Source: an uncultured Flavobacteriaceae bacterium
GTDB taxonomy: Bacteria; Bacteroidota; Bacteroidia; Flavobacteriales; Flavobacteriaceae
Direction: 5' to 3'
Assembly (NCBI GenBank): GCA_947494325.1
Contig: CANLUS010000008.1
Location: 1 to 64,000, forward strand
DNA length: 64,000 nt
In this document: one piece after another, positions 14,412 to 27,430 of the stretch
Position numbering within the stretch: the first letter of the stretch is position 1
Layout of the letters: every line of letters begins with the position of its first letter
Made by a program: the position numbers and the translations under genes
Notes under the pieces: generated by a model
What the model was told of the DNA's origin: nothing
Database searches by the model: none
The model's input: the letters and a program-made list of their open reading frames with translations, nothing else

Positions 14412-15136
14412 AACATATAGTCTACATTTTGATAACAATGCTGCTTATTTCTTGTACGAAGGATAGTATTGACGATGACGCTATTTTATCTAGCTATGTA
14501 CTTGATAGAACAATTGAAAAAGGTGCTGTCATAGCGTGCGCGGGCAGCAGTGAAAATACTTCAACAGTGTTGGTTTTTCAATATCCTGTTAATGGGGCAA
14601 TAAACACCAAATTGTACGAAACTGAAACTATTAATGTTGATGAAAATGACTTTTCTAACTATGCGAAAGTTGCGATTGAAGCCAGTCCTTTTTTCAATGG
14701 ATATCTTCAACAATTTGATAGAAATCTCGATGTCGAAAAATGGATTATTATAACGCATGAACTAAATGGTGAAGTTAAAATATCAAACCCGATTCGTACC
14801 AAACAACATTCGAAAGTATCGAAATGGACAGATGCAGTCGAAATTGATCAACAAACATCTATGATGCCTAACTTCACTTGGGAAAAGAATCAATTTGGTG
14901 ACAATGCAATTTATTTTCAAGTGATTTCGGATGCTGAAAACAACTTATTATCGGGTACCTATACAATAGAGAATACTTTTCAATATTATGACACTTCAAA
15001 TGTCGTTCTAAATATAACAACAGAAACACCGCCAATACTTTCTATTGGTGCTGAATACAACTTTTCTTTGATGGATGTAAGTGAAGATAATTGGGTAAAC
15101 TTATTTATCCTAAACAAAAAATTTATAGTTGAATGA
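14408..15136 (+). CDS. lipoprotein of unknown function
   Basis: 242 aa starting at TTG (14408), which overlaps the TGA of the hydrolase gene. No ATG gives a better signal peptide. The signal ends at lipobox Cys16 (MLLISC). The mature part is rich in beta-type sequence, with WIIITHE and VSKWTDAVE, which recalls fibronectin-like or DUF4249-like modules. I do not recognise the family. Its own stop overlaps the next gene's ATG (ATGA, 15133-15136), so translation of hydrolase, lipoprotein and the first mini-Omp85 is probably coupled. It might help the barrel protein or bind the hydrolase's substrate; this is inference from position. Confidence 0.7.
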   Translation: MKHIVYILITMLLISCTKDSIDDDAILSSYVLDRTIEKGAVIACAGSSENTSTVLVFQYPVNGAINTKLYETETINVDENDFSNYAKVAIEASPFFNGYLQQFDRNLDVEKWIIITHELNGEVKISNPIRTKQHSKVSKWTDAVEIDQQTSMMPNFTWEKNQFGDNAIYFQVISDAENNLLSGTYTIENTFQYYDTSNVVLNITTETPPILSIGAEYNFSLMDVSEDNWVNLFILNKKFIVE

Positions 15137-16401
15137 AAAAGGTAATAGTGGTGTTACTACTATCAATCATGGCGAATACGAGTGCGTTCTCGCAAGAACA
15201 ACTAATTGCCAATTTTAAGATTGAAGGGTATAAGAAAACGAAAAAATCGTTTGTTGAAAAAATTGCACTGGTCGATGCTGGACAGATGTTAGATTCCGTA
15301 AAAATAGAAGAAGATATACAACGTCTCAAACGTTTGGCTTCTTTTGCGAATGTGACGTACAAAGTGATTGAATTAAATGATGGAACCTTTGACGTAATTT
15401 ACAATGTAGAAGAAAATTTCACTATTATTCCGGGCTTAGATATTTTTACCGCAACGAATGGTGAGTTCGCTTTTAGAGCCGCTATTTTCGAATTTAATTT
15501 TCTAGGTAGAAATCAGATCGTCGGCGGTTTTTATCGACGTAATGTATTTGACTCGTACGGAGCATATTGGGAAGCACCATATCTATTTAGTCGAAAATTT
15601 GGCTTGGGTGTTAATTATAAAAAATTAGTCTCAGAAGAGCCTATCTTTCTACAAGATAATGACGATGTTGACTATAGATTTGATAACGATGCATTTGAGT
15701 TGTATTTTATTTATGAGCATAACTTTCATAACCGTTTTGAACTTGGAGTTAATATTGCTAGAGAAGATTATGAATTTTTGCGAGGGGATATTCCAGCAAA
15801 TCTTCCTAGAACTTTGAGTGCTAATAAAACAGCAATTATTGGAGAGTATGAGTACAATAATATAGATATAGATTACCAATATCAAGAAGGTTTTAGAAGT
15901 ATATTAAATGTTAGATTACAAACTGGAGGAAATGAATTTTTAAGAAATTCGTTTATTGGAACGAATGATTTTGAGTATTTCAAGAAAATTGGACCCAATG
16001 GAAACTGGGCAAATCGATTACGTTTTGCATATGCCACGAATGATACAACTCCGTTCGCACCTTTTTCTGTCGATAATCAATTAAATATTCGCGGAGTTGG
16101 AAATGTTATTGATAGAGGTACAGCCTCGATTGTTTTAAATACTGAGTATAGACATACATTGTATGAAAAGGGTTGGTTTGTTATACAGAGTAACGCCTTC
16201 ATAGATACCGGTACATGGAGAAAACCTGGAGGCAATTTTGGAGAGTTATTTGATGGGAGTACTGTTCGGTTTTATCCAGGAGCAGGTATCCGATTTATTC
16301 ATAAGAGAATTTTTAACGCTGTTTTTAGATTAGATTATGGTTATGGTATCGGGAGTAACGCTTCTAGGGGTATTGTTTTCGGAATAGGGCAATACTTTTA
16401 A
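15133..16401 (+). CDS. mini-Omp85 (BamA/TamA family) outer-membrane protein, copy 1
   Basis: 422 aa with a signal peptide ending SAFSQ. A single POTRA-like segment (about residues 23-95; FKIEGYKKTKKSFVE, IQRLKRLASF) leads through EENFTIIP into a barrel. The Omp85 loop-6 signature appears as NIRGVGN with R320, followed by DRGT and NTEYRHTLYEKGW. BamA has five POTRAs and TamA three; one POTRA with a 300-residue barrel is unusually small. The Omp85 family inserts or exports proteins or lipids at the outer membrane. It is followed by an equal-length paralogue after 35 bp and coupled to the lipoprotein upstream. Confidence 0.83.
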   Translation: MKKVIVVLLLSIMANTSAFSQEQLIANFKIEGYKKTKKSFVEKIALVDAGQMLDSVKIEEDIQRLKRLASFANVTYKVIELNDGTFDVIYNVEENFTIIPGLDIFTATNGEFAFRAAIFEFNFLGRNQIVGGFYRRNVFDSYGAYWEAPYLFSRKFGLGVNYKKLVSEEPIFLQDNDDVDYRFDNDAFELYFIYEHNFHNRFELGVNIAREDYEFLRGDIPANLPRTLSANKTAIIGEYEYNNIDIDYQYQEGFRSILNVRLQTGGNEFLRNSFIGTNDFEYFKKIGPNGNWANRLRFAYATNDTTPFAPFSVDNQLNIRGVGNVIDRGTASIVLNTEYRHTLYEKGWFVIQSNAFIDTGTWRKPGGNFGELFDGSTVRFYPGAGIRFIHKRIFNAVFRLDYGYGIGSNASRGIVFGIGQYF

Positions 16402-16436
16402 GGGAGAATATGTTATATTGGTAGAATTGCTTTAAT

Positions 16437-17705
16437 ATGCGGTTATTAAAAATAGTAGGAATCATTTTAATTATCTTGAAAGGCTTTAGTTGCGATGCTC
16501 AAGAGAATCGCGTGGCCGATCTAAAAATTAGAGGGAATAAAAAATTAAAAGCAAGCTTCATAAAGAAAATTACCAAAGTAGAAGTTGGTAGTAGATTAGA
16601 CTCCCTGCTGTTAGAAGAAGATATTAGACGTTTAAAGCGCTTGCCATCGGTAGCACATGCCTATTATCAAGTGTTTCCTTCGACCAATAATGAATACAAT
16701 GTATTCTATTCAGTTGAAGAAAACTTTACCATTATTCCATTGGCAAATGTATATACTACAAATGATGATGAATTTGCCTTCAGAATAGGAGCTTATGAAT
16801 ATAATTTACTAGGTCGAAATATCACTTTTGGAGGTTTTTTTCAACGTGATATTTATAATTCTTATGGAATTAATTTTAGGGCTCCTAATCTTTTTAGTAG
16901 ACAATTTGGACTTGCACTAAATCATCAAAATTTAACAACCGAAGAGCCTGTTTTTTTAAGTACAGCCACGGCCAATTATAGATATAATAATAAATCATAT
17001 GAGGTTTTGGGTTTGTATCAGATTGATTTTAAGCATCGAGTAGAGCTCGGAATTAATTATTTTACCGAAGATTATCAGTATTTATCGGGTGCGACAGACC
17101 CTGCTATTCCGTTAGATTTGAACGTTAAAAAACTACTCTATAAGTTTGTATATGATTATGATAATCTAGATTATTACTACCAGTATGTATCTGGATTTAA
17201 AAGTATTCTCAATTTTCAATATGTAACCTCTAGAGATATCGCTTTACCTGAATTCGCTATCGGTTGGAATGATTTTTTATATTTTAAACGAATTGGTGAA
17301 AAAGGAAACTTAGCAAATAGATTACGTTTAGGGATATCATCGAATGACGATTCACCATTCGCACCATTTTCTGTAGATAATAATCTAAATATTCGAGGTG
17401 TTGGGAATACCATTGATAGAGGAACAGGAGTGATAATTTTGAATACCGAATATCGACACACGTTGTATGAAAAGGACTGGTTTATTTTGCAATCAAATGC
17501 TTTTATAGATGCAGGTTCTTGGAGAAACCCTGGAGGTGATTTTGGGGACTTTGGTGATACTCAAAATTTACGGGTTTATCCAGGTGTAGGATTGAGATTT
17601 ATTAGTAAGAAGATATATAACGCAACCTTTAGAATTGATTATGGCGTAGGGATTACCAAAGATGCTACCAACGGCTTCGTTTTTGGAATTGGTCAGTATT
17701 TTTAA
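16437..17705 (+). CDS. mini-Omp85 (BamA/TamA family) outer-membrane protein, copy 2
   Basis: 422 aa, the same length as copy 1. The matching motifs fall at the same positions: one POTRA segment (LKIRGNKKLKASF), EENFTIIP, and loop-6 NIRGVGN with R320. The signal peptide ends near SCDAQ. The paralogues are clearly related throughout but diverged, so the duplication is old rather than recent. The pair may form two versions of one exporter or a heteromeric device. The 3' end converges on the GT2 gene at 17702-18412 with a 4-bp overlap, so no room is left for a separate terminator. Confidence 0.83.
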   Translation: MRLLKIVGIILIILKGFSCDAQENRVADLKIRGNKKLKASFIKKITKVEVGSRLDSLLLEEDIRRLKRLPSVAHAYYQVFPSTNNEYNVFYSVEENFTIIPLANVYTTNDDEFAFRIGAYEYNLLGRNITFGGFFQRDIYNSYGINFRAPNLFSRQFGLALNHQNLTTEEPVFLSTATANYRYNNKSYEVLGLYQIDFKHRVELGINYFTEDYQYLSGATDPAIPLDLNVKKLLYKFVYDYDNLDYYYQYVSGFKSILNFQYVTSRDIALPEFAIGWNDFLYFKRIGEKGNLANRLRLGISSNDDSPFAPFSVDNNLNIRGVGNTIDRGTGVIILNTEYRHTLYEKDWFILQSNAFIDAGSWRNPGGDFGDFGDTQNLRVYPGVGLRFISKKIYNATFRIDYGVGITKDATNGFVFGIGQYF

Positions 17706-18412
17706 GTCGTAATATGTTGCTTATAGTAGCTATGTAATTCTTCCGCAGAAGCTCCAAACCATTTTTTTATATAGATCATTAAAAAATGATATTGTAATTT
17801 CCATATACCATTTTTGATATAGGCTCTAGAAGATGAAATGAGGGTCTCTTGAATCACCGTAAACTCTTTTCGAGCATATAATTTATTAATAAAGTCATTG
17901 TCTTCATATATGATGAAACGCTCATCAAAACCTCCAATTTCATTGAATAACTGTTTTGTTACGAACTGACTTTGATCACCTCCTCTACAAGCGCGCCAGC
18001 TAAATTGGGTAAACCAACTAACTAAGTACAACCACCAATGTCGATGGTTGAATTGCATTTTGAAACAACCTGCAGCATTCCCTTTTTTTATTTCATTTAT
18101 GATAAGGCGATCATAATTTTTTGGAGGGAAGGAATCGGCATGTAAGAAATAAAGAATATTTCCTGTAGCTTCTTGCGCACCAGCATTCATTTGTTTTGCA
18201 CGGCCTTTTTTAGAATATATTTGTTTGAAGAGATCTGAAGAATTAGCGATTATACGATTAACAATATCTTGTGAACTATCGGTACTGCCACCATCCACGA
18301 CAATAATTTCGGCTAAATTTTTTCTTGTTGCATTATCTTTTAAATGTGTGAGTAGATTCAGAATATTATCTGCCTCATTTAAAACTGGAATGATTACGGA
18401 GATTTTATTCAT
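17702..18412 (-). CDS. TIGR04283-type glycosyltransferase of the arsenosugar locus
   Basis: 236-aa soluble GT2 enzyme. VIIPVLNEADNI (6-17), VDGGSTDSS, KQMNAGA and LHADSFPP give the GT-A donor site. CRGGDQSQFV and GGFDERFIIYEDND match the TIGR04283 subgroup, which is associated with arsenosugar gene sets. It is expected to transfer a (possibly arsenic-bearing) sugar, but its donor and acceptor have not been defined as far as I know. It is the last gene of the minus-strand locus and overlaps the DUF547 gene upstream by 8 bp. Confidence 0.85.
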   Translation of the reverse strand: MNKISVIIPVLNEADNILNLLTHLKDNATRKNLAEIIVVDGGSTDSSQDIVNRIIANSSDLFKQIYSKKGRAKQMNAGAQEATGNILYFLHADSFPPKNYDRLIINEIKKGNAAGCFKMQFNHRHWWLYLVSWFTQFSWRACRGGDQSQFVTKQLFNEIGGFDERFIIYEDNDFINKLYARKEFTVIQETLISSSRAYIKNGIWKLQYHFLMIYIKKWFGASAEELHSYYKQHITT

Positions 18413-19277
18413 TTAAGTCCCAGTTGTAATCCAAAAAGGATTTCTTAGCATTTTTAGAAATACTTATGTCAGTGTACTTATTTAAAAAATCGATAATTGT
18501 ACCGTCTCTTTTAAAATCTTTTGCGAACCATTTAAATATTTTTGAGAGCTTGATTGACTTTTCAGAAATAATATTTCTTTCAGGATTTTTTAAAAAATCT
18601 TTGGTGACCTTAGTCAATTGTGCTTCTAAATTGTCGGCTGTATACGCCTCATTTATTAATTTAGGACAAGAATAAGAGGCACAAACAATACCAAAATGAA
18701 TTCTTGGTTCATTCATTTTTCTCAAAATTTGATGTTCAATTTCATTCAATGTATACCATTTACTCCCCAATTGCCAAAGAAGCTGATCCCAAGGATTTTT
18801 AATATCCTTAATGCTCTTTAGAGGATAATTTCTTATAATAAGATCTACTGTTAAGGCATTATAAGCATTGATCCAATAGGCTAATTTATCTTCTCTGCTC
18901 CATGCATCGGAAGGGATGTTTTTATTGAGATTTTCAATATATTTATTCAATTCGTTCTGATCTTTGGCAAATCCTTTGTAGTTCACATTTCCCTTATCAG
19001 ATACATGTTTTTGCAAAAGTTGATGCCAAACTTTATGACTGATAACATTAGATGCTGAAATCAAATCTATTTCAATATGTTCTATGATATCACCTGGTTT
19101 TGGTTCTAAAGCGGTCTCTTCAACTTCAATTTCGCTATTCGCTATCGGAGTTTTAGTTGCCTTTGTTACAATATCGGTAACGGTTTTTTTTTGTACAGAT
19201 GATCTATTCGTAGTTTGTTTAGCTCCGAAACAAGAAGACATGACATAGATTGCTATAATCGCATAGATATATTTCAT
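18405..19277 (-). CDS. DUF547 domain lipoprotein
   Basis: 290 aa with a lipoprotein signal (MSSC, Cys16), then a Ser/Thr/Glu-rich linker to about residue 70 and a DUF547 domain. The domain carries LAYWINAYNALTVDLII, HFGIVCASYSCPKLINEAY and a C-terminal LDYNWDLNE. The conserved histidine and cysteines match those in the other DUF547 protein of the window (11670-12383), but this copy is lipid-anchored. Function unknown. It sits between the sterol-desaturase-like gene and the TIGR04283 glycosyltransferase, overlapping the latter by 8 bp, so it probably belongs to the same envelope-related step. Confidence 0.85.
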   Translation of the reverse strand: MKYIYAIIAIYVMSSCFGAKQTTNRSSVQKKTVTDIVTKATKTPIANSEIEVEETALEPKPGDIIEHIEIDLISASNVISHKVWHQLLQKHVSDKGNVNYKGFAKDQNELNKYIENLNKNIPSDAWSREDKLAYWINAYNALTVDLIIRNYPLKSIKDIKNPWDQLLWQLGSKWYTLNEIEHQILRKMNEPRIHFGIVCASYSCPKLINEAYTADNLEAQLTKVTKDFLKNPERNIISEKSIKLSKIFKWFAKDFKRDGTIIDFLNKYTDISISKNAKKSFLDYNWDLNE

Positions 19278-19325
19278 AAGATCTAACTATTTTTTAAGTA
19301 TTTCGAAAAATCATGCCAAAGAGGC

Positions 19326-20204
19326 CTAATCTTTATGGAGAGGATACAATTCTTGTTGGATAAAATTCTGAGGAAAATTTTCATCCCCTTCAAAACCAAG
19401 CTCAATATCTCTTCCGTCGTGCGGAATGTAATTTGTTTTAAAAATATAATCCCATACACTTAAGGTAAGTCCGAAATTCACACCATACCTTACAGGAAGT
19501 TCTTTGCTATGATGCCAAATATGCATTTTAGGATTATTGAAAAGATATTTTAACGGGCCATAGCTCCAACCTAAGTTGGCATGATTCAAATGACCGATAG
19601 CAATACTGAAAAAATATACAATCGCAACATCTTGCGCATCAAATCCGCCAATAACTGCCATTGGAATATAAAGTAATGATTTATAAACCACAGGTTCCAT
19701 CCAGTGGTATCTTAAATGCGCTGCAAATCCCATTTGTTTGACACTGTGATGCACTTTGTGAAAATTCCATAGAAATTCCACGCGATGAAGCAAGCGATGT
19801 GTATTCCATTGCACAAAATCTGAAACAAGAAAAAAGATCAATAGGCCAAGCCATTTTGGTAAATCATCAACATCAAATAGCTGAAAACTACCGATAGAGA
19901 TTCCAATAGTACTCAAAAGGTCATCGAAAAATTGTGCTACCGTATTTGACAGTGCAATTAATACAATCAAGTTAAGTAAAAAGAAATTGAAAAACATGTA
20001 GAAGGTATCTAACCAAAAATCTTTCCTAAAAATGGACTGATTTTTCCGCCAAGGAAACACAATTTCTAATAGCCAAACGATTAGAGAAATGGCAATTAAA
20101 CCATAGAAATAATTATCCCAATGATTTTGAAATAATAGTTCTTGCTTCAAGTAATTCCAATACCCTGAATACGAATTTTTAATAATGTCTAGGTATTTTT
20201 CCAT
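19326..20204 (-). CDS. sterol desaturase / fatty acid hydroxylase superfamily membrane protein
   Basis: 292 aa with about five membrane helices. All histidine boxes of the di-iron superfamily are present: H136xxxH140, H149xxHH153, H205xxH208 and H228xxHH232. Known members hydroxylate or desaturate lipids (C4 sterol, fatty acid or alkylglycerol), so a lipid substrate in the inner membrane is likely. It lies downstream of arsM, past a strong terminator-like hairpin, and a weak promoter core (TATCTTTA, minus strand, 20212-20219) sits just before its ATG. It may therefore be transcribed separately or by read-through. A link to arsenic-containing lipids is speculation from position. Confidence 0.83.
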   Translation of the reverse strand: MEKYLDIIKNSYSGYWNYLKQELLFQNHWDNYFYGLIAISLIVWLLEIVFPWRKNQSIFRKDFWLDTFYMFFNFFLLNLIVLIALSNTVAQFFDDLLSTIGISIGSFQLFDVDDLPKWLGLLIFFLVSDFVQWNTHRLLHRVEFLWNFHKVHHSVKQMGFAAHLRYHWMEPVVYKSLLYIPMAVIGGFDAQDVAIVYFFSIAIGHLNHANLGWSYGPLKYLFNNPKMHIWHHSKELPVRYGVNFGLTLSVWDYIFKTNYIPHDGRDIELGFEGDENFPQNFIQQELYPLHKD

Positions 20205-20230
20205 CTCGATATAAAGATACTATATTTCAT

Positions 20231-20263
20231 AAAAAAAAGAGATACTCGTCGAGTGTCTCTTTT
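20231..20263 (-). terminator. intrinsic terminator after arsM
   Basis: On the minus strand AAAGAGACACTC pairs with GAGTATCTCTTT (12 bp with one wobble, 20236-20262) across a very short loop, followed by a run of eight T. It starts about 20 bases past the arsM stop and should end the AhpD-to-ArsM transcript. Confidence 0.85.
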
Positions 20264-20282
20264 ATCATTTCTAATGTTGTTG

Positions 20283-21251
20283 TTAACAGCAGCCGCCTCC
20301 ATCATAATGGAAAGTAGATTCTGAAAAGTATATATCATCTCTTCCTAAAGCTTGTAATGCTCCAGCGGTTTTATCACAAATAGCCAACGGTTGATTTTTC
20401 AACAATGTGTGTCCGAGGCCGTCGTCGAAATAATCCTCATCACCATAATAAATAGCTGCTTTCCCAGTAAAAATACAAGGACCATCTTCGGGCATAGGAT
20501 CTTTAATAGCGGCTACCTCTATCGATTCAATATATATCAATTCATCTGTAGGATAGTTCTTAGGATCTAATATTCGATAAGGCTTTCGCGCTCTAATTTC
20601 TATCGTTCCGAAACCAGCATCAGTAAGTGCCTTGACGTAATCAGCAATAGACAAACTTCCGCTAAGGCAAAGAGCCCTTAAACGTTCGTCATTGCGCAAT
20701 TCATCATTCATTGGCTGCTCGCACGTAGGATCACTCATTACCAATCGGCCATGAGGTTTTAACACACGATACATTTCGGCAATTGCCTTTTTTAAATCAT
20801 CAGATTTAAAGATGTTAAACAAGCAATTTTGTGCGGCTACATCTATTGAATTATCTTCGACAGGTAAATTCATCGCATCTCCTTTGCGAAGATCAACAAA
20901 ATCACTTTTGAACCATGGATTCATCGCTTCTGCCTCTTTAAAATTGATACGCGAAGCTTCGAGCATTTCGTCAACAACATCTAAACCAATCACGCCGCCT
21001 TTATTTCTGTTGAAATAAGCAAATTGTAATAATTCCATACCACCTCCAACACCAACATATAACATTTTTGGATTATTGGTCAAATCACGCGCATGCACTG
21101 TACTCCCGCATCCGTAGTTCATTTCTTGCATAATCTTAGGAATCTTCAACCCTGGAAGCTCCCAAATTGGATTAGTTGTGCAACATAAGCCAACATCAGG
21201 TGTTAGAGCAGCTTCTTTATATACATTATGCGTTGTTTCTAAATAGCTCAT
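20283..21251 (-). CDS. arsM: arsenite methyltransferase of the arsenosugar type
   Basis: 322-aa SAM-dependent methyltransferase that should convert As(III) to methylated species, the dimethyl form feeding arsenosugar synthesis. The SAM site is LYVGVGGGMELLQFAY (64-79). Cysteines stand where ArsM enzymes bind arsenic: C48 in NYGCGST, C143 in AQNCLFNIF and C195 in CLSGSL. Extra pairs are C23-C24 and the very C-terminal C321-C322. MSDPTCEQP follows the Rossmann core. The arsenosugar subtype is recognised from the N-terminal CC and the adjacent arsS set. It lies 6 bp after the nucleoside phosphorylase gene and is followed by a strong terminator. Confidence 0.88.
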   Translation of the reverse strand: MSYLETTHNVYKEAALTPDVGLCCTTNPIWELPGLKIPKIMQEMNYGCGSTVHARDLTNNPKMLYVGVGGGMELLQFAYFNRNKGGVIGLDVVDEMLEASRINFKEAEAMNPWFKSDFVDLRKGDAMNLPVEDNSIDVAAQNCLFNIFKSDDLKKAIAEMYRVLKPHGRLVMSDPTCEQPMNDELRNDERLRALCLSGSLSIADYVKALTDAGFGTIEIRARKPYRILDPKNYPTDELIYIESIEVAAIKDPMPEDGPCIFTGKAAIYYGDEDYFDDGLGHTLLKNQPLAICDKTAGALQALGRDDIYFSESTFHYDGGGCC

Positions 21252-21257
21252 AAATAA

Positions 21258-22073
21258 TCAAATAGATTGTATTAATTCTTTAAACAATAGTATCATTTTT
21301 GGTTCAGCTTTTCCGGCGATCGCTATGATTTCTTCAATATTTACAGGCTGTAAATTTTTAGGATCACATTCATCCGTTAATACTGAAATGGCACTACATG
21401 GCAAGTTTAAATGTTTTGCAACAATTACCTCAGGAACAGTACTCATACCTACAGCATCAGCTTCTAATATTTGTAGCATCCGATATTCTGCTCTTGTCTC
21501 TAATTGTGGCCCTACCACACTAGCATAGACACCTTCTTTCAAGTCTATGTCGTTGCTTTTAGCAATAGCTTTCAGTTTATTGTTTAATTTTTTTGAATAG
21601 GGTTCGAGCATATCGGCAAATAACTCGCCGAAATTACCAGCCCCTTTAAAGGCTAAGGGCGAACTACCTTGTAAATTAATATGATCATCAATGAGCATCA
21701 AATCTCCTTTTTTATACGTCAAATTGATAGCTCCTGCAGCATTCGAAATCAATAAATGCTGGATGCCGAGTTCATGCATTATGCGAACACCATAAGTTAC
21801 TTCCCATAGATCGTAGCCTTCATATAAATGAAATCGCCCCGACATGACAACTACTTTTTTACCAGACAGCGTTCCGTAAATAAGCTTACCAGAATGAAAT
21901 TCTACCGTTGCCGTTGGAAAATTTGGAATGTCTGAGTATAATAATTCACTTTCGATAATTATTTCATCTACTAATTTCCCCAGGCCAGTACCTAATACAA
22001 TACCAACTTCAGGATTCAAGAAGCCTTGAGATGTTAGAAAATCATGGGTTTCTTTCAGTTGTACTTTCTTCAT
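21258..22073 (-). CDS. purine nucleoside phosphorylase, trimeric type
   Basis: 271-aa PNP-I enzyme that splits purine nucleosides with phosphate into base and (deoxy)ribose-1-phosphate. Signatures: VLGTGLGK (phosphate loop), MSGRFHLYEGYDLW, ISNAAGAINLTYKKGD, the MSTVPEV loop and VLTDECDP. The gene is wedged between arsM and the DUF2064 gene, overlapping the latter by 4 bp. In this context it could phosphorolyse the ArsS product (a 5'-dimethylarsinoyl adenosine) to an arsenoribose-1-phosphate. That use is my inference; the enzyme may equally serve purine salvage. Confidence 0.9.
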   Translation of the reverse strand: MKKVQLKETHDFLTSQGFLNPEVGIVLGTGLGKLVDEIIIESELLYSDIPNFPTATVEFHSGKLIYGTLSGKKVVVMSGRFHLYEGYDLWEVTYGVRIMHELGIQHLLISNAAGAINLTYKKGDLMLIDDHINLQGSSPLAFKGAGNFGELFADMLEPYSKKLNNKLKAIAKSNDIDLKEGVYASVVGPQLETRAEYRMLQILEADAVGMSTVPEVIVAKHLNLPCSAISVLTDECDPKNLQPVNIEEIIAIAGKAEPKMILLFKELIQSI

Positions 22074-22702
22074 TGATTGACAATTTGTTTGGTCATTTTT
22101 TGAATGTGTAGATTTCTCTTGTAAAAATCAGATGCAATTAAATCTTCAAAGGTATCGATATCATTCAAACTTTGCAGCAAAGAAAATTTTGCATTTTTTG
22201 TCGTCAATTCTTCTAAGGTAGTTTCCAATAAATGTGATTGACTCCAAGGTTTATTTTCAAAGACACCTGTGTTCATTTTAGTTTGTCCAATTAAATAATA
22301 ACCACCGTCATCTGCGGGACCAAAAACGAGTTCATTTTGCGATAGTTGTTTAAAAGCATCACGAATAATGGTTTCTGAAATTTCGGGTAGATCAGAACCT
22401 ATGAGCACAATTTTTTCATAGCCATCAGCAAAACCATCCATGAAAGCGTTTTTCATACGTTCACCTAAATCGGCACCTTGCTGGACAGTTTTAAATGTAT
22501 TCGGCCATTTATAATCAATCACGACATCAGAAAAATAGATGCGTTTTTCAACAGGTAAATTGGTGGTGATAGTTTCAGTGATTTTAAAAAGTTCTTTATA
22601 TATTTCAAAAGCTCCCTGATCACCAATAGTTTTCGCTAATCGTGTTTTTACTTTTCCTAGTTTTATGTTTTTTACGAAAACAATCAATAATTCTTTATTC
22701 AT
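22070..22702 (-). CDS. TIGR04282 / DUF2064 protein of the arsenosugar locus
   Basis: 210 aa from the ATG at 22702; the GTG at 22714 would add four residues. Motifs are KNIKLGKVKTRLAK near the N-terminus, GADLGERM, GSDLPEI and FGPADDGGYYLIG. This is the DUF2064/TIGR04282 group, called an arsenosugar biosynthesis glycosyltransferase by annotation. Its fold is that of a GT-A or nucleotidyltransferase (CofC-like), so it may activate a sugar phosphate rather than transfer a sugar. The start overlaps the rhodanese gene's end by 8 bp and the stop overlaps the phosphorylase start by 4 bp. Confidence 0.85.
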   Translation of the reverse strand: MNKELLIVFVKNIKLGKVKTRLAKTIGDQGAFEIYKELFKITETITTNLPVEKRIYFSDVVIDYKWPNTFKTVQQGADLGERMKNAFMDGFADGYEKIVLIGSDLPEISETIIRDAFKQLSQNELVFGPADDGGYYLIGQTKMNTGVFENKPWSQSHLLETTLEELTTKNAKFSLLQSLNDIDTFEDLIASDFYKRNLHIQKMTKQIVNQ

Positions 22703-23192
22703 AAACCTTCTCACCTTTTAGTAACCATACCCCCCATTCTTTAGAGTATGCATGTACTTTATTGGTTTCTACACCTTTTGTAAAAACTTTATTTCCTTCA
22801 TTCTTCCATTCAAAAATTCCTCCAAACAGGTTATAGATGTTGGTATAACCCTTGCTTTTTAATTGTTCAGCAATATCTTCAGAACGAACCCCTAAAGAAC
22901 AATATACTATTATTTTAGCGTCTTTCTGAGGTAATTTTTTGATGGTTTTCTGAATGTCAAACTTTTCATAGCCCACAAACAACGCATTTTTTAAATGACT
23001 TACATTATACTCATTTTTTTCACGAGCATCTAATAAAACAATATTAGAATCTGTAGCTTTTAGTTTATTTACTGTGATATATGGGATGTTTTCGGTGTTG
23101 TACTTTTTTAATACTTCAGCCAATGTTTTTTGCCCGTATGAATTTGACACACCTGAAAAAAGCAAGATTAATATAAACACTATTTTTTTCAT
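22695..23192 (-). CDS. secreted rhodanese-like domain protein
   Basis: 165 aa with a signal peptide (VSNSYG, about residue 20) and one rhodanese domain. LLDAREKNEYNVSHLKNA and the active-site loop IVYCSLGVRSED (Cys near residue 98) are intact. Rhodaneses move sulfane sulfur or bind oxyanions. The predicted export suggests periplasmic action. Inside an arsenosugar operon it could supply sulfur for thio-arsenicals or handle arsenic oxyanions, but I see no direct evidence. It starts 12 bp after arsS ends, which favours co-transcription. Confidence 0.83.
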   Translation of the reverse strand: MKKIVFILILLFSGVSNSYGQKTLAEVLKKYNTENIPYITVNKLKATDSNIVLLDAREKNEYNVSHLKNALFVGYEKFDIQKTIKKLPQKDAKIIVYCSLGVRSEDIAEQLKSKGYTNIYNLFGGIFEWKNEGNKVFTKGVETNKVHAYSKEWGVWLLKGEKVYE

Positions 23193-23204
23193 ATAACTAT
23201 GCCT

Positions 23205-24260
23205 TTAAGCAACAACACCTTGACAGCTGCTACCAGCGCCCGCAGTGCAGCCATAACAATGTTGATTAATGATAATATTTCTGTCTTGTAATACCTCTTC
23301 GTTATATTTCGAAATATGTTTGATTTTACTGTTTACTTTTAAATTCAACATTTGATTAAAGTCACAATCATATAACCAGCCATCCCAGCTAATAGAAATA
23401 GTATTCGTGCACATCACATTCTCAACAGCGGCTGGATTATAAGCATCTACTAAGGCAAACATATAGTCTTCGTAATTTTCGGAGGCAATTAAATAATCTA
23501 GGAATCTACTAATGGGCAAGTTCGTAATGGCGAAGAGACTATTAAATTCAATATTAAAATCATCTTTTAGAGCCTTTTTAAAGTCTTGTTCTAAGGCCAT
23601 TTGATCTCCAGGTAAATAGGCTCCAGAAGGGTTGTAAACTAAGTCTAATTTCAAATTGCTATCTGGCATGCCGTAACCAACTGCATTTAATTCTTGTAAA
23701 GCTTTTATTGATTTATCAAAAACTCCATTTCCGCGTTGTTTGTCGGTCTTTCCACGAGTCCAATGGGGCATTGACGAAACAACATGCACATTATACTTTT
23801 TGAAAAATTCGGGTAAGTCATAATATTTTTTGTTTGCTCGAATAATGGTTAAGTTAGATCGAACAATAAAATCTTTAATTCCGGCTTTAGAAGCTTCTTC
23901 GACAAACCATCTAAAGTTTGGGTTCATTTCTGGGGCTCCACCGGTGAGATCTAGGGTATGTGCACCTGTTTTTTCAATAACTTCCAAACACTGTTTCATA
24001 GTTTCTGTAGTCATGATTTCTTTACGGTCAGGGCCAGCATCTACGTGGCAATGGGCACATACCTGATTACACATGTATCCTAAGTTTATTTGAAGAATTT
24101 CCAATTTTTTTGGACGAAGTGGAAACTGATTTGTTTCCTTTATTTTTTTTGCAAACGTTGGCAATTCACCATTTGCAAAAATTCCGTTAGACAAAATTTC
24201 AAGCTGTCGCTCGGTATTTGCTAAATCATTATTTCTCGCTAAAAGAGATTTTTTCGACAT
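23205..24260 (-). CDS. arsS: arsenosugar biosynthesis radical SAM protein
   Basis: 351 aa. The N-terminal radical SAM domain has the cluster motif C64xxxC68xxC71 (GYMCNQVCAHCH). The C-terminal DUF3641 domain ends in CYGCTAGAGSSCQG with C335, C338 and C346. Some family members carry selenocysteine in this C-terminal motif; all are cysteine codons here. ArsS joins a 5'-deoxyadenosyl group to dimethylarsenic, giving the precursor of arsenosugars, after ArsM. It lies downstream of the AhpD-like gene across an 85-bp gap with a perfect inverted repeat (24312-24344) and upstream of the rhodanese gene. Confidence 0.9.
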   Translation of the reverse strand: MSKKSLLARNNDLANTERQLEILSNGIFANGELPTFAKKIKETNQFPLRPKKLEILQINLGYMCNQVCAHCHVDAGPDRKEIMTTETMKQCLEVIEKTGAHTLDLTGGAPEMNPNFRWFVEEASKAGIKDFIVRSNLTIIRANKKYYDLPEFFKKYNVHVVSSMPHWTRGKTDKQRGNGVFDKSIKALQELNAVGYGMPDSNLKLDLVYNPSGAYLPGDQMALEQDFKKALKDDFNIEFNSLFAITNLPISRFLDYLIASENYEDYMFALVDAYNPAAVENVMCTNTISISWDGWLYDCDFNQMLNLKVNSKIKHISKYNEEVLQDRNIIINQHCYGCTAGAGSSCQGVVA

Positions 24261-24311
24261 TTAAAATCTAGTATTATTTAAGATCCTTTAGTTTAGGAAA
24301 GGATTAACCAA

Positions 24312-24344
24312 CAATCACAATTTTGATTTTCAAAATTGTGATTG
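24312..24344. promoter_or_regulatory. perfect 14-bp inverted repeat between the AhpD-like gene and arsS
   Basis: CAATCACAATTTTG (24312-24325) and CAAAATTGTGATTG (24331-24344) are exact complements around a 5-base loop. It touches the AhpD-like stop codon (24346) and lies about 50 bases before the arsS ATG. No T-run follows on the minus strand, so it is not a canonical terminator. It could attenuate read-through, stabilise the upstream mRNA 3' end, or be a protein-binding palindrome. Confidence 0.7.
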
Positions 24345-24345
24345 T

Positions 24346-24681
24346 TTACATTTCTAATTTATTTACTTTATTCATCATTTGAACTCCATGAACCAGCGTA
24401 GCACCACTTTTAATCGCGGCTCCTACATGTACTGCTTCCATCATTTCTTCTTTGGTTATACCGCGTTGTAAACCATCTTTAGTATAGGCATCAATACAAT
24501 AAGGGCATTGTTCTGTATGTGAAACCGCCAAGGCGATTAAGGATTTTTCTCTAGCAGTAAGTGCTCCTTCTTCAAAGACCTTTCCATAATATTCAAAAAA
24601 TGAATCACCTAACTCTTTATTCCAATCAGAAATATTTCCAAATTTTCGTAAGTCTGCTGGATCATAATATGTTTTTGACAT
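24346..24681 (-). CDS. AhpD/carboxymuconolactone decarboxylase-like protein of the arsenosugar locus
   Basis: 111-aa protein of the AhpD-like fold. The redox motif CPYC lies in HTEQCPYCIDAYTK (about residues 56-69), and EAVHVGAAIKSGATLVHG follows. Proteins of this size next to arsS are annotated 'arsenosugar biosynthesis-associated peroxidase-like protein'. The CxxC suggests thiol-disulfide or peroxidase chemistry, perhaps keeping arsenic as As(III); that role is inferred. It appears to be the first gene of the locus, with a palindromic candidate operator 33 bp upstream of its ATG. Confidence 0.87.
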   Translation of the reverse strand: MSKTYYDPADLRKFGNISDWNKELGDSFFEYYGKVFEEGALTAREKSLIALAVSHTEQCPYCIDAYTKDGLQRGITKEEMMEAVHVGAAIKSGATLVHGVQMMNKVNKLEM

Positions 24682-24713
24682 AGTTATTGGTGTTATTTAT
24701 CTATAGATTAGTA

Positions 24714-24734
24714 TTAGTACGTGAAAAGTACTAA
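24714..24734 (-). promoter_or_regulatory. palindromic candidate operator of the arsenosugar operon
   Basis: TTAGTAC-N7-GTACTAA is a perfect 7-bp inverted repeat. On the minus strand it contains TACTTTTC, a one-mismatch version of the Bacteroidota -7 box. A bound regulator would block a promoter here. Its position, 33 bp before the first gene's start, is right for an operator. No ArsR-type or other regulator gene is present in the window, so the binding protein is unknown. Confidence 0.5.
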
Positions 24735-24823
24735 AGTTTACGGAAACCTAGTAAAAATTGCGATGTAAAATGTGTAGAAGAAAAAAAGGAGGGTAAGAGC
24801 AAGCCGAATTTATACCACTTTAT

Positions 24824-25780
24824 TTAGTTTTGATGCGCAATGGCCAGTTCTTTCTCGATAGAAGCTCCCACTTCAATAATCTTTCCTTCTTTTCCCAAAA
24901 TGACATTCGGGAAAATGAGTTTCGCCTCTTCCTTGAAAAGTGATAAGTCATTATATCGACTAGAATAATGACCTAATATTAATTGTCCAACATTGGCTTG
25001 TTGTGCTATTTGAGCGGCTTGACCTGCCGTCGAATGTTTCGTGTGCTCGGTAAGATCAATTTTATCATTTAAAAAAGTGGATTCGTGGTATAACAAATCG
25101 ACATTTTTAATAAGAGGAACAATAGATGGTTTATAAACGGTATCACTACAGTAGGCATAACTTTTTGGCTTCGTTGGATTAAGCGTTAGGTCAGCGTTAT
25201 AAATGATATCGCCATTTTCTAAAGTGAAATCTCTTCCATTTTTCAGGTTTTGATAGTCACAAATCTCAATTTCATTGTGCTGCTCAATAGCAGTCATGTT
25301 CAATTTTCGGGCTCCTATTTTTTCTTTGAATAGAAAGCCATTGGTATAAACTCTATGTTCTAATGGAATGGTATGTACTTCAACTTTGTCATCTTCGAAA
25401 ATAAGTTCACTTTCAGTATGCTCTAATTCGTGAAAGTGTAGTTGAAATTTCAGCCAACTGTTTGACATCTTCAATTGAAGTTGGATAATTTCTTTAATGC
25501 CTTTTGGTCCATAAATATGCAAATCATTTTGTCTATTCAACAAGCCAAACGTTGATATAAGGCCAATTAAACCAAAAAAATGGTCTCCATGTAAATGAGA
25601 AATAAAGACGCGATCAATTTTAGAAAATTTCACTTTGTATTTTCTTAATTGAACTTGAGTTCCTTCTCCACAATCTATTAAAAAAGAACGATTGTTAATT
25701 TCTAAATATTGAGACGTTGGATGAGCAAATGTCCTTGGAGTTGCCGAATGACAACCTAATATGGTCAATTTTAGACTCAT
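24824..25780 (-). CDS. rnz: ribonuclease Z
   Basis: 318-aa metallo-beta-lactamase-fold endonuclease that trims the 3' end of tRNA precursors. The zinc motif SHLHGDH is at residues 61-67, preceded by LIDCGEGTQ. Further His/Asp ligands appear in SDTVYK, HST, HTKHSTAGQAA and LGHYSSRY. Length matches bacterial RNase Z (about 305-320). Its ATG overlaps the stop of the T9SS-domain gene by 4 bp, and it is the last gene of the pyrR-pyrB minus-strand operon. Confidence 0.95.
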   Translation of the reverse strand: MSLKLTILGCHSATPRTFAHPTSQYLEINNRSFLIDCGEGTQVQLRKYKVKFSKIDRVFISHLHGDHFFGLIGLISTFGLLNRQNDLHIYGPKGIKEIIQLQLKMSNSWLKFQLHFHELEHTESELIFEDDKVEVHTIPLEHRVYTNGFLFKEKIGARKLNMTAIEQHNEIEICDYQNLKNGRDFTLENGDIIYNADLTLNPTKPKSYAYCSDTVYKPSIVPLIKNVDLLYHESTFLNDKIDLTEHTKHSTAGQAAQIAQQANVGQLILGHYSSRYNDLSLFKEEAKLIFPNVILGKEGKIIEVGASIEKELAIAHQN

Positions 25781-26130
25781 TTAATGACGATCCGTTTAGA
25801 AACAACTTCAGTGTTCGTTTTAATAGAATAAATATATATTCCAGAATCTAACTTATCCCGGTAGAATGGAATATAATTTGCCCCTTTTTTTGTAGTATAT
25901 TTCTTGAAATAAACGGTGTTGCCAATAAGATCTTTAACAGAGAATTCAAGTTCAAATGATCGGTAGGCAAGAAACTTTATTTTAGTAGTTACGCTAAAAG
26001 GGTTAGGAGATGCTACAATATCCTTTAACACCATTGTCGTGTCTTTTGCAATGGTATTAGACTCTTCTTGTTGTGCAAAAACAGTAGTTGAGAGTGTAAC
26101 AATAAATATAAATAGTAGTTTTTTAACCAT
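25777..26130 (-). CDS. small secreted protein consisting mainly of a T9SS-type sorting domain
   Basis: 117 aa from the ATG at 26130; the TTG at 26136 is less likely. A signal peptide ending VFAQ is followed by a short linker and then about 80 residues resembling a type A C-terminal sorting domain. SPNPF opens the domain, LIGNTVYFKK and LDSGIYIYSIKT follow, and it ends in a basic strand. Such domains normally steer a large passenger through the type IX system. Here there is essentially no passenger. It may be a periplasmic decoy, a small surface protein, or a domain reused for structure. It lies between the STAS-like gene and rnz. Confidence 0.72.
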   Translation of the reverse strand: MVKKLLFIFIVTLSTTVFAQQEESNTIAKDTTMVLKDIVASPNPFSVTTKIKFLAYRSFELEFSVKDLIGNTVYFKKYTTKKGANYIPFYRDKLDSGIYIYSIKTNTEVVSKRIVIK

Positions 26131-26146
26131 AAGCAATTTTAGTTCA

Positions 26147-26479
26147 TTAAAATCCTAAATCTCGTTCAATTTTTTCCATTTCGATAATATCTTTTGCTTC
26201 CTGCAACGTTGGAACAATCATAATTTCGTCAGGTATACTGTTGAAATTTATTCCATTAACAACTACTACAAAAGATGTGCCATCGTTTCTGTGCTTTTCT
26301 GAAAATTCTAAAAAAAGTGATATGTTTTCTGTGTTCACCCCTTTTAAACCAGAAAAGTCTATTATAACGTTAGCGCCCTCAAAATTACTATATTTTTCTC
26401 TAAATACAATAAAAAACTCTGAAACCGATGTTTCGTTGCACTTTAATATGCTAATATCATCTTTTTTTTCAATAATCAT
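26147..26479 (-). CDS. STAS-like small cytosolic protein
   Basis: 110 aa, no signal. The pattern of alternating strands and helices with VIIDFSGLKGVNTENISLF recalls STAS/anti-sigma-antagonist domains, but the Ser/Thr phosphorylation site is not clear. Homologues beside rnz in flavobacteria are sometimes mislabelled ribonuclease Z; nothing here resembles a metallo-beta-lactamase. Possible role: a regulatory switch domain. It sits 18 bp after pyrB and 16 bp before the T9SS-domain gene. Confidence 0.6.
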   Translation of the reverse strand: MIIEKKDDISILKCNETSVSEFFIVFREKYSNFEGANVIIDFSGLKGVNTENISLFLEFSEKHRNDGTSFVVVVNGINFNSIPDEIMIVPTLQEAKDIIEMEKIERDLGF

Positions 26480-26497
26480 TCGTCCTATGTCCTATCT

Positions 26498-27430
26498 TTA
26501 ATTTGGTTTAATTTGCTGCGCTAATAAATAAATTACTGCCATTCTAATGGCCACACCATTTTCAACTTGATTCAAAATAATCGATTGTTTCGAATCGGCT
26601 ACATCACTCGTGATCTCAACCCCTCGATTTATCGGCCCTGGATGCATAATTACAATTTCCTTGCCAAGACTATCTAATAGCTCACGATTAATACCAAACA
26701 GTTGCGTATATTCTCGAATTGATGGGAAATAATTTATATCCATACGTTCATGCTGTACGCGTAAAACATTGGCAACATCACACCATTGTAATGCCTTTTT
26801 AAGATTGGTTTCAACCAAAACACCTAAGCTAGCTATATGTTTCGGAATTAATGTGGTAGGGCCGCAAACCATCACTTTTGCTCCTTGTAATTGTAAGGCG
26901 TATATGTTTGACAAAGCTACCCGAGAATGTAAGATATCTCCTACGATAACTACCTTTTTTCCTTTTACAGATCCTAAGTTTTCTTTAATCGAATAACTGT
27001 CTAATAAGGCCTGTGTAGGATGCTCATGGGCGCCATCACCTGCATTAATTATTTTGGCATCTATATGTTTAGAAAGAAATACACCTGCACCTACATTTGG
27101 ATGTCTCATCACCACAATATCAACTTTCATAGATAAAATGTTATTCACCGTATCAATGAGAGTTTCCCCTTTCTTTACAGAAGATTGCGATGCAGAAAAA
27201 TTAATAACATCGGCGGAAAGTCTTTTTTCTGCTAATTCAAAAGATAATTTTGTACGTGTACTATTTTCAAAAAATAGATTTGCGATTGTTATATCGCGTA
27301 AAGAAGGTACTTTTTTTATAGGTCTATTAATAACTTCTTTAAAGTGATTGGCAGTTTCAAATAATAGGTCGATATCTCGAAGATTAAGATATTTAATACC
27401 CAATAAATGTTGTACGCTTAAATGCTTCAT
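26498..27430 (-). CDS. pyrB: aspartate carbamoyltransferase catalytic subunit
   Basis: 310-aa ATCase that makes N-carbamoyl-aspartate from carbamoyl phosphate and aspartate in pyrimidine synthesis. The carbamoyl-phosphate motif STRT is at 57-60 (FFENSTRTKLSFE), HPTQ at 137-140, and MHPGPINRGVE lies near residue 275. Length is normal for a class without a PyrI regulatory subunit, and no pyrI is adjacent. It starts directly after the pyrR stop (27431), as is usual for PyrR-controlled operons. Confidence 0.97.
   Translation of the reverse strand: MKHLSVQHLLGIKYLNLRDIDLLFETANHFKEVINRPIKKVPSLRDITIANLFFENSTRTKLSFELAEKRLSADVINFSASQSSVKKGETLIDTVNNILSMKVDIVVMRHPNVGAGVFLSKHIDAKIINAGDGAHEHPTQALLDSYSIKENLGSVKGKKVVIVGDILHSRVALSNIYALQLQGAKVMVCGPTTLIPKHIASLGVLVETNLKKALQWCDVANVLRVQHERMDINYFPSIREYTQLFGINRELLDSLGKEIVIMHPGPINRGVEITSDVADSKQSIILNQVENGVAIRMAVIYLLAQQIKPN

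Follow-up and report, generated by a model that had tools for sequence, protein, structure and literature searches.

The window analyzed in this work, a stretch of 64,000 nucleotides from an uncultured Flavobacteriaceae bacterium, contains a group of genes of arsenosugar type, whose coordinates and shared minus-strand orientation, as given in a preliminary description, are borne out by the sequence and by NCBIfam scores:

24346..24681, minus strand: AhpD-like protein, arsenosugar-associated (TIGR04169; NCBIfam 189.9 bits, curated cut-off 120)
24310..24346, strand not applicable: perfect 17-nt inverted repeat in the AhpD-like/arsS intergenic region
23205..24260, minus strand: ArsS, radical SAM (TIGR04167; Radical_SAM and DUF3641; 438.8 bits, cut-off 300)
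22695..23192, minus strand: rhodanese-like protein (NF045521, "rhoda_near_glyco"; 204.3 bits, cut-off 145)
22070..22714, minus strand: DUF2064 protein (TIGR04282), proposed nucleotidyltransferase (190 bits, cut-off 134)
21258..22073, minus strand: PNP, trimeric-type purine nucleoside phosphorylase, "type B" (NF006054, PRK08202; 323.7 bits, cut-off 218)
20283..21251, minus strand: ArsM, arsenosugar-type arsenite methyltransferase (NF038099; 570.7 bits, cut-off 400)
20235..20263, strand not applicable: 14-nt inverted repeat 3' of ArsM, probable terminator (T run on the minus-strand side, by eye)
19326..20204, minus strand: fatty-acid hydroxylase/sterol desaturase family protein (PF04116; domain match)
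18405..19277, minus strand: DUF547 protein (domain match)
17702..18412, minus strand: GT2 glycosyltransferase (TIGR04283; 229.7 bits, cut-off 182), proposed to transfer activated arsenoribose

The locus combines a TIGR04167 ArsS, an NF038099 ArsM and both the TIGR04282 and TIGR04283 partners, and by these markers qualifies as a putative arsenosugar locus; the radical SAM cysteines of ArsS (C-x3-C-x2-C; C87, C91 and C94, first-row numbering) are invariant in all 20 aligned rows. The rhodanese-like protein features a signal-like N-terminal stretch, as judged by eye, and the start codon of DUF2064 is likely the ATG at 22702. PNP lies, as originally described, inside the run with a 4-bp overlap with its neighbor, DUF2064 (22070-22073), and a gap of 6 bp divides it from ArsM. 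The original picture of one tight run holds for six genes, AhpD-like, ArsS, rhodanese, DUF2064, PNP and ArsM. The hydroxylase and DUF547 genes, neither of which appears in the preliminary description, and the GT2 gene follow beyond ArsM on the minus strand, and are probably separated from the run by the terminator: because of this inverted repeat, GT2 may be on a separate transcript. A search of positions 16000-27000 against Rfam gave no match at gathering score, and a tRNA search of the window found none. Several of the accompanying genes recur elsewhere: of 120 ArsS loci (L092-L211), 103 have an AhpD-like gene no more than 6 kb away from ArsS, DUF547 shares the PNP strand in 35 out of 40 loci of the family (L314-L353), and the PF04116 hydroxylase, possibly a lipid-side enzyme, is found in 21 of the same 40, as well as on a Thiodictyon and an Acinetobacter plasmid.

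Conservation of the arrangement was evaluated in 149 Flavobacteriaceae genomes, drawn from 148 genera, 119 with and 30 without ArsS. A type-B PNP was found just after DUF2064, on the same strand, in all 119 ArsS-positive genomes, within 1.5 kb in 118 of them and at 1.7 kb in the remaining one. PNP adjacency, for which a survey of other ArsS loci had been proposed, is thus conserved with respect to DUF2064 and not confined to one genome; an accident of a single genome is ruled out. The proximity of the two genes (within 3 kb, one strand, 119/119) exceeds chance. A spacing of up to 3 kb on a shared strand is seen for PNP and ArsS in only 78 of the 119, while the tie to DUF2064 is kept in 22 genomes whose PNP is either over 15 kb away from ArsS or on a different contig: PNP tracks DUF2064 more closely than ArsS. 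In 97 family genomes no more than 15 kb separate PNP from ArsS (96 with both genes on one strand, and additionally G018), and full regions were read for 40 of these (L314-L353), for G030 (L289) and for the window itself. NF038099-type ArsM is present in 95 of the 149 genomes, all ArsS-positive, and starts less than 500 bp after PNP in 90 of them.

DUF2064 itself, present in 119/119 ArsS-positive genomes, is found in 6 of the 30 ArsS-negative ones. Five genomes devoid of both ArsS and ArsM retain DUF2064-PNP-GT2, and the ArsS-less G191 retains DUF547-RHO-DUF2064-PNP; part of the linkage is therefore independent of arsenic. Eight ArsS-less genomes hold a type-B PNP by itself, and G016 contains a residual C-terminal fragment of ArsS (54.7 bits). 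When relatedness is allowed for, 2-3 concordant and no discordant pairs show ArsS and the linkage being lost together, too few to be significant.

Outside the family, a phosphorylase lies within 3 kb of ArsS in 6 out of 112 loci, where about 0.5 would be expected; this set excludes five family loci and three named Flavobacteriaceae (L199, L201 and L210), and may still include some family members, because group codes could not be mapped onto names. The neighbor scan of L092-L211 took all open reading frames; a scan restricted to the longest ones misses genes in GC-rich MAGs. No PNP was found near ArsS in 35 regions from non-family Bacteroidota, taken from 91 ArsS-positive genomes of this kind, which rules out PNP linkage in every ArsS clade. 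In some clusters S-methyl-5'-thioadenosine phosphorylase (MTAP), not PNP, accompanies ArsS: together with TIGR04283/TIGR04282-type genes in a Longimicrobiaceae MAG (Gemmatimonadota), and with GT2 and DUF2064 on plasmids of Burkholderia glumae, Cupriavidus and Acinetobacter. MTAP-containing clusters show at least 3 gene orders; in B. glumae some 6 kb separate the MTAP-TIGR04283-TIGR04282 run from arsS, which is on the opposite strand. Plasmid-borne MTAP is rare (73 out of 72,556 records, 47 of which Burkholderia). Among 81 Gemmatimonadota genomes, 9 contain ArsS and 5 an MTAP over the cut-off, and a general MTAP linkage in this phylum is ruled out, the two being adjacent in one of the 9, the Longimicrobiaceae MAG already mentioned. 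Because the PNP query detects MTAP poorly (36 bits), L092-L211 were rescanned with MTAP queries, which added none beyond L185. Two further PF01048 genes were seen in ArsS loci, neither of them close: in L207 an MTAN-like one about 9.5 kb upstream, and in L176 one at about 7 kb downstream that matches deoD weakly (36 bits).

The window PNP scores below the cut-off of the "inosine and guanosine-specific" family TIGR01700 (277.4 against 293.35 bits) and well below that of the MTAP profile TIGR01694 (92.2 against 274.85), and is therefore at most MTAP-like in action, not an MTAP itself. Its specificity positions are L200/D243/I257 (human numbering). The Asn typical of TIGR01700 at position 243 is replaced by Asp in all 44 linked sequences counted, window included. 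The N243D change makes human PNP about 4,000 times more efficient with adenosine (PMC6128611, available portion), and His257 contacts the 5'-OH of the substrate, according to the accessible parts of PMC3214022 and PMC12648331. The window enzyme thus combines an adenine-permitting Asp with a hydrophobic residue in place of the usual 5'-OH-binding His, and cluster MTAPs align Asp and Val at these two positions. Such residues would permit cleavage of 5'-deoxy-5'-substituted adenosines.

The same L/D/(L,I,V) class is found in 22 out of 31 PNPs from ArsS-less non-family Bacteroidota (the best-scoring one from each of 30 genomes, plus one tandem copy), which rules out an arsenic-specific adaptation of the active site; its presence in 17 out of 19 ArsS-positive non-family genomes accordingly means little. 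Types A and B were divided at a profile score of 360 bits, with residues checked where the sequence was in hand; G127 and G058, with fragmented PNP matches, and G057, with an internal stop, are classed by score. In the three genomes looked at which contain both types (G030, G229 and G357), type B is found with ArsS or DUF2064 and type A elsewhere. In a quick tree built with no mixture model and, on account of its short length, without L344, the linked PNPs make up a portion of a single clade, which makes one ancient linkage possible. The window PNP is the sole PNP-type enzyme of its host genome, 99.39% complete, where the other PF01048 member is nearest to uridine phosphorylase, below the cut-off of that family.

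DUF2064 carries a K-T/S-R-L signature and conserved Asp residues, and K19, R21, D104, D132, D181 and D183 are invariant in all 50 aligned sequences; four of the six DUF2064s from ArsS-less genomes were aligned (L244, L249, L253 and L380), and keep all invariant columns. A Foldseek search with its structure model (pLDDT 95.2) matched FbiD, a CofC-like protein and a 3-PG guanylyltransferase. The top match, 3cgx, is labelled merely "putative nucleotide-diphospho-sugar transferase"; among folds of known function, the closest are nucleotidyltransferases. By fold and signature the protein looks like a nucleotidyltransferase of the CofC/FbiD fold. Fold and invariant residues point to nucleotidyltransferase, not glycosyltransferase, activity for TIGR04282, and suggest that the family is misnamed.

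Taken together, we consider it fairly probable that the locus directs arsenosugar biosynthesis with a phosphorolytic branch, made of phosphorolysis by PNP, activation by DUF2064 and transfer by GT2. Phosphorolysis inverts the beta configuration to alpha, and GT2 inverts it back. Work on other organisms has shown that arsenite is methylated by ArsM, and that ArsS links dimethylarsenic to the 5'-deoxyadenosyl moiety of SAM. PNP would then cleave the ArsS product with phosphate, yielding adenine and 5-deoxy-5-dimethylarsinoyl-alpha-ribose 1-phosphate, which the CofC/FbiD-like DUF2064 would convert to an NDP-sugar; the inverting GT2 would finally attach the arsenoribosyl group to an alcohol (glycerol or a lipid), giving a beta-riboside, the configuration of natural arsenosugars (PMC10456119, accessible part). 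In at least one genome of the Gemmatimonadota, and in some Proteobacteria, this cleavage would fall to MTAP instead of PNP. Adenine removal, activation and transfer had been presented in the preliminary description as a full enzymatic route. MTAP replacement, PNP residues and DUF2064 fold back this chemistry indirectly; the completeness of the route we infer. PNP is unique in its genome and of a class common in the phylum, GT2 may be on a separate transcript, and the scheme leaves out the hydroxylase and DUF547. With no other PNP-type enzyme in the genome, PNP is likely to handle ordinary purine salvage as well. In a wider formulation, to which we would give an even chance, PNP (in the family and near relatives) or MTAP (in some Proteobacteria and Gemmatimonadota) feeds DUF2064, which makes an NDP-ribofuranosyl donor for GT2, and the cassette also serves other 5'-modified adenosines of radical SAM enzymes; this generality would explain why it survives the loss of ArsS.

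Other explanations have to be weighed. PNP might be merely a housekeeping salvage enzyme, trapped in a conserved gene order and devoid of any arsenic role. Its uniqueness in a nearly complete genome, the lone type-B PNPs of eight ArsS-less genomes, the diffusion of its active-site class in the phylum and the possibly single origin of the linkage would all agree with this, but we regard it as unlikely, given the tie to DUF2064 in all ArsS-positive genomes of the family, including the 22 where PNP is away from ArsS, the substitution by a different phosphorylase in some other phyla and the association of type B, not type A, with ArsS or DUF2064 in the three genomes looked at where both types coexist. 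It is rather improbable that PNP eases product inhibition by removing adenosine-type by-products, namely 5'-deoxyadenosine from uncoupled ArsS and adenosine from the S-adenosylhomocysteine of ArsM, without making a pathway intermediate: SAM is used by both ArsS and ArsM, and 5'-deoxyadenosine would suit both MTAP and a PNP of the D243/I257 type, but the phosphorylase follows DUF2064 more closely than ArsS, and in B. glumae it lies with the TIGR04283 and TIGR04282 genes, away from arsS.

We would likewise give little credit to a rhodanese-DUF2064-PNP-GT2 cassette of arsenic-independent origin, converting for example 5'-deoxyadenosine or another 5'-modified adenosine to an activated 5-modified ribose, to which arsenic genes were recruited later. 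The cassettes retained in the five genomes lacking ArsS and ArsM and in G191, and the intact invariant columns of the four aligned ArsS-less DUF2064s, speak in its favor; the distribution of DUF2064 (119/119 against 6/30) is, however, what would be expected if arsenic were the main use and the rest recent losses, and G016 still retains its ArsS fragment. Finally, PNP might act as an arsenate reductase supplying ArsM with arsenite, since the mammalian enzyme can, given a dithiol, reduce arsenate in vitro (PMC12608789, which refers to Gregus and Nemeti 2002; available portion), although the same text gives the occurrence of this reaction in vivo as unknown. Such a role would leave both the DUF2064/GT2 tie and the MTAP replacement unexplained, and is highly improbable. 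The phosphorolysis, activation and transfer route is the best-supported explanation, in which we infer the steps after ArsS.

Arsenosugars and arsenolipids are prominent organic forms of arsenic in the sea and in seaweed. In the literature searched, as far as its accessible portions go, no enzymes are assigned to the steps after ArsS, no turnover data for them were found, and a phosphorolytic relay is not described; an unnamed adenosyl nucleosidase has been proposed for one algal arsenolipid (PMC10456119, a review, available in part). Conserved linkage and non-orthologous exchange of adenine phosphorylases allow concrete enzymes to be named for the late pathway, for which sugar-phosphate and NDP-sugar intermediates are predicted, testable with few purified proteins. 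The PNP-DUF2064 linkage and the MTAP exchange hint at a possible mechanism for the end of arsenosugar synthesis, about which little is known.

The window shares its ArsM and ArsS families with the arsenosugar pathway of Synechocystis (Xue et al. 2019, as reported in the available parts of PMC8552651 and PMC12159101), and adds to it, in one place, DUF2064, PNP, rhodanese, AhpD-like, GT2 and lipid-type genes. No phosphorylase was found within the 10-kb flanks of four cyanobacterial ArsS loci (L138, L139, L142 and L143); in the Leptolyngbya FACHB-8 genome, the single PF01048 match is an MTAP located outside the 10-kb flanks of ArsS. The best solved relative of the window PNP is the PNP I structure 4lna (298.7 bits), of the same type by its Asp and Leu in the two aligned specificity columns, which presumably comes from Spirosoma and for which we know of no arsenic context. 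The CofC/FbiD guanylyltransferases, Rv2983 and MM2497 (the latter, we assume, CofC), are fold neighbors of DUF2064, which scores 35.3 bits against TIGR03552, below the cut-off of 105. Window proteins are members of the NCBIfam arsenosugar families TIGR04169, TIGR04282 and TIGR04283, while PNP belongs to none; TIGR04282 is named there a glycosyltransferase, whereas fold and residues of the window protein suggest a nucleotidyltransferase. MTAP (TIGR01694) resembles the window PNP in reaction type and in the Asp and hydrophobic residue at the specificity positions, and stands in for it in some other ArsS clusters.

The preliminary description placed a purine nucleoside phosphorylase (PNP) inside a tight, single-strand arsenosugar run, an observation confirmed by the gene coordinates, all assigned by profile matches:

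24681-24346, minus strand, AhpD-like protein (TIGR04169)
24260-23205, minus strand, ArsS
23192-22695, minus strand, rhodanese
22714-22070, minus strand, DUF2064 protein (TIGR04282)
22073-21258, minus strand, PNP
21251-20283, minus strand, ArsM (NF038099)
20204-19326, minus strand, fatty-acid hydroxylase
19277-18405, minus strand, DUF547 protein
18412-17702, minus strand, GT2 glycosyltransferase (TIGR04283)

In the stretch from the rhodanese to ArsM, each gene either overlaps the next or is separated from it by 6 bp. Downstream of ArsM there is a 14-nt inverted repeat (20235-20263), which has a T run on its minus-strand side; another inverted repeat, perfect over 17 nt and without a T run, separates the AhpD-like gene from arsS and directly follows the AhpD-like stop codon (24310-24346). 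Convergent with the GT2 gene are two tandem ORFs of 422 aa (15133-17705), which by eye look similar to each other and outer-membrane-like. All nine genes recur in identical order in L210, a locus from a MAG named Flavobacteriaceae, which makes Flavobacteriaceae the probable identity of the family sampled below. The window genome (43 contigs, 99.39% completeness) features two PF01048 matches, the locus PNP and one closest to uridine phosphorylase (90.7 bits, below the cut-off of 280.3); thus, no further PNP-, MTAP- (S-methyl-5'-thioadenosine phosphorylase) or MTAN-type enzyme of this superfamily was found in it.

Within the family of the window organism, 149 genomes from 148 genera were each searched for five protein families, and ArsS was above cut-off in 119. 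In these, PNP lies downstream of ArsS on the same strand within 3 kb in 77 genomes, at 3-5 kb in 3 and at 5-15 kb in 15; it is upstream on the same strand in one, upstream on the opposite strand at 3.9 kb in another, distant on the ArsS contig in 11 and on a separate contig in 11. DUF2064 was found in all 119, always ahead of PNP, the spacing between profile ends being below 200 bp in 109, 200-1500 bp in 9 and 1660 bp in one. The adjacency to ArsS noticed in the window recurs, within 3 kb, in 78 of the 119 genomes, whereas PNP lies within 3 kb of DUF2064 in 119 out of 119, and hence tracks DUF2064 more faithfully than ArsS. Even the 22 loci with a far PNP all have DUF2064 upstream, with ArsM next in 17 and GT2 retained in 20. 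Among 40 adjacent ArsS-PNP loci examined as full regions, some of which stop at contig or region edges, DUF2064 is upstream of PNP in all (in 34 when the distance between midpoints is limited to 1.4 kb), ArsM comes next in 28, GT2 lies within 8 kb in 31, and DUF547 and the hydroxylase are found in 35 and 21, respectively.

ArsM of the NF038099 type was detected in 95 family genomes, every one ArsS-positive, and starts less than 500 bp past PNP in 90 of them. In the 24 ArsS-positive genomes without it (E 1e-60), dimethylarsenic may be supplied by another methyltransferase. A second DUF2064-like gene lies directly 3' of ArsS in eleven loci (L319, L330, L332, L335, L343, L346-L351), where ArsS and PNP are about 9 kb apart (nearer in L351), with transport genes between. 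In L343 the intervening genes encode a TonB-type receptor, a binding protein, two permeases, an ATPase and a radical SAM protein, and in L319 a SusD-like protein and a metallophosphoesterase. The L343 copy scores 102.1 bits, below the cut-off of 134, and the K-T-R-L signature is absent from the five sequences inspected (L319, L332, L343, L346, L351).

No ArsS above cut-off was present in 30 of the 149 genomes. DUF2064-PNP with GT2 is retained in five of them (G001, G016, G034, G089, G113), eight carry a type B PNP (L200-D243-(I,V,L)257, human numbering) by itself, seven only type A (F200-D243-H257), and ten no PNP of this protein family, including G047, which has DUF2064 alone. G016 also contains an ArsS C-terminal remnant (contig C7, 79733-79903; 54.7 bits), perhaps a sign of recent loss, and L380, in an ArsS-less genome of a different family (G191), retains DUF547-rhodanese-DUF2064-PNP. 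ArsS and type B PNP are associated across the family (Fisher p = 1.3e-14, relatedness ignored); a relatedness-aware pair test gave 2-3 pairs in the expected direction and none against, which is not significant. Since the linked PNPs all fall inside one supported 54-row clade of a quick tree, the genes may have become linked once, long ago, in this portion of Bacteroidota, with losses afterwards.

In the phylum sample, ArsS was found in 104 of 247 genomes, 91 of them outside the family. PNP was absent from all 35 non-family Bacteroidota ArsS regions examined (15-20 kb each, from 35 of these 91 genomes). Of such genomes, 19 were checked for a PNP elsewhere, and 18 encode one whose two specificity positions hold Asp and a hydrophobic residue; most ArsS-less genomes do too. 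When the best 80 named ArsS loci from a GTDB genome scan were included, a phosphorylase lay within 3 kb of ArsS in 6 of 112 loci not assigned to the family (L160, L176, L185, L188, L189, L209), against about 0.47 expected by chance at a density of three members of the superfamily in 4 Mb (Poisson p ~1e-5, relatedness ignored). Two of the six, L160 from a Chitinophagales MAG and L188 from a Thermoflavifilum MAG (Chitinophagaceae), differ in gene order. Three loci carry the name Flavobacteriaceae, and two of them (L199 and L201) showed no PNP in the DNA examined.

In some organisms the place of PNP is taken by MTAP. L185, from a Longimicrobiaceae MAG (Gemmatimonadota), reads AhpD-ArsS-MTAP-GT2-DUF2064 on a single strand; its MTAP is above cut-off (276.0 against 274.85 bits), while TIGR04283 and TIGR04282, each the sole match at the threshold used, are below theirs (165.5 against 182 and 124.5 against 134 bits). 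Among 81 Gemmatimonadota genomes, five have MTAP above cut-off and nine ArsS, adjacent in the L185 genome only. ArsS was also found on 52 plasmid records, of which 47 are from Burkholderia. These records represent six kinds of organism, and in three of the six MTAP lies within 10 kb of ArsS. The Burkholderia glumae BGR1 plasmid, the sole Burkholderia record examined, carries an MTAP-TIGR04283-TIGR04282 run 6 kb from arsS; that of Cupriavidus KK10 has ArsM-like and ArsS genes, then TIGR04283-TIGR04282-MTAP; in Acinetobacter portensis, arsS is followed at some distance by DUF547, TIGR04283, TIGR04282, an ArsM-like methyltransferase (below all cut-offs), a phosphate transporter, a reversed mtnP and a fatty-acid hydroxylase. 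The last plasmid (L390, a record named for NDM-1) is typed as mobilizable. MTAP was not found within 6 kb of ArsS on the Pseudanabaena, Hymenobacter and Thiodictyon plasmids. On plasmids in general it occurs in 73 of 72,556 records (E 1e-20), 47 of the 73 being Burkholderia. In the Leptolyngbya genome of L138, the lone PF01048 match is an MTAP gene that lies outside the 10 kb flanking ArsS.

The closest solved relative of the window PNP is 4lna. The window PNP and E. coli XapA were aligned with 109 distinct locus sequences, and positions 200, 243 and 257 were placed by sequence motifs. Three main classes emerged: the canonical Y/F200-N243-H257 class, with 16 N/H rows, type A, with 9 D/H rows, and type B, with 83 rows having Asp and I, V or L; two rows are N/V and one is unreadable. 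All 44 distinct linked PNP sequences counted are L/D/(I,V,L). In an ArsS-less genome (G195), a tandem PNP pair (L378) has Asp in one copy and Asn in the other. According to published work, Asn243 sets 6-oxopurine specificity, N243D raising adenosine efficiency about 4,000-fold (PMC6128611), the human E201Q:N243D enzyme accepts adenosine prodrugs (PMC2799393), and His257 holds the 5'-hydroxyl (PMC3214022, PMC12648331), a group that the ArsS product does not have. These residues permit phosphorolysis of that product and do not prove it, because 22 of 31 PNPs from ArsS-less non-family genomes belong to the same class.

K19, R21, D104, D132, D181 and D183 are kept across 50 DUF2064 sequences. The nearest solved fold to the predicted structure (pLDDT 95.2) is 3cgx, which shares 30% identity and is annotated as a putative nucleotide-diphospho-sugar transferase; FbiD Rv2983, MM2497 and 3-phosphoglycerate guanylyltransferase are also near, and the first characterised glycosyltransferase ranks 17th.

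The pathway is opened by ArsM and ArsS (as cited in PMC8552651 and PMC12159101). The preliminary description had assigned the late steps to PNP, DUF2064 and GT2: PNP would split the ArsS product by phosphorolysis to arsenoribose 1-phosphate, DUF2064 would activate it and GT2 would transfer it. This interpretation, which proposes the enzymatic steps from genomic sequence, is partly supported and is strengthened by the replacement of PNP with MTAP elsewhere. The phosphorylase might instead clear a by-product, but it is tied more closely to DUF2064 than to ArsS, which speaks for a role in making the precursor. Phosphorolysis followed by an inverting GT2 would restore the beta configuration, which natural arsenosugars have (PMC10456119). 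A phosphorylase-arsenosugar link was not found in the literature searched, largely non-subscription papers. For an algal arsenolipid, PMC10456119 carries a prior proposal of an adenosyl nucleosidase; that route would yield a free sugar, whereas the PNP route proposed here would yield a sugar 1-phosphate.
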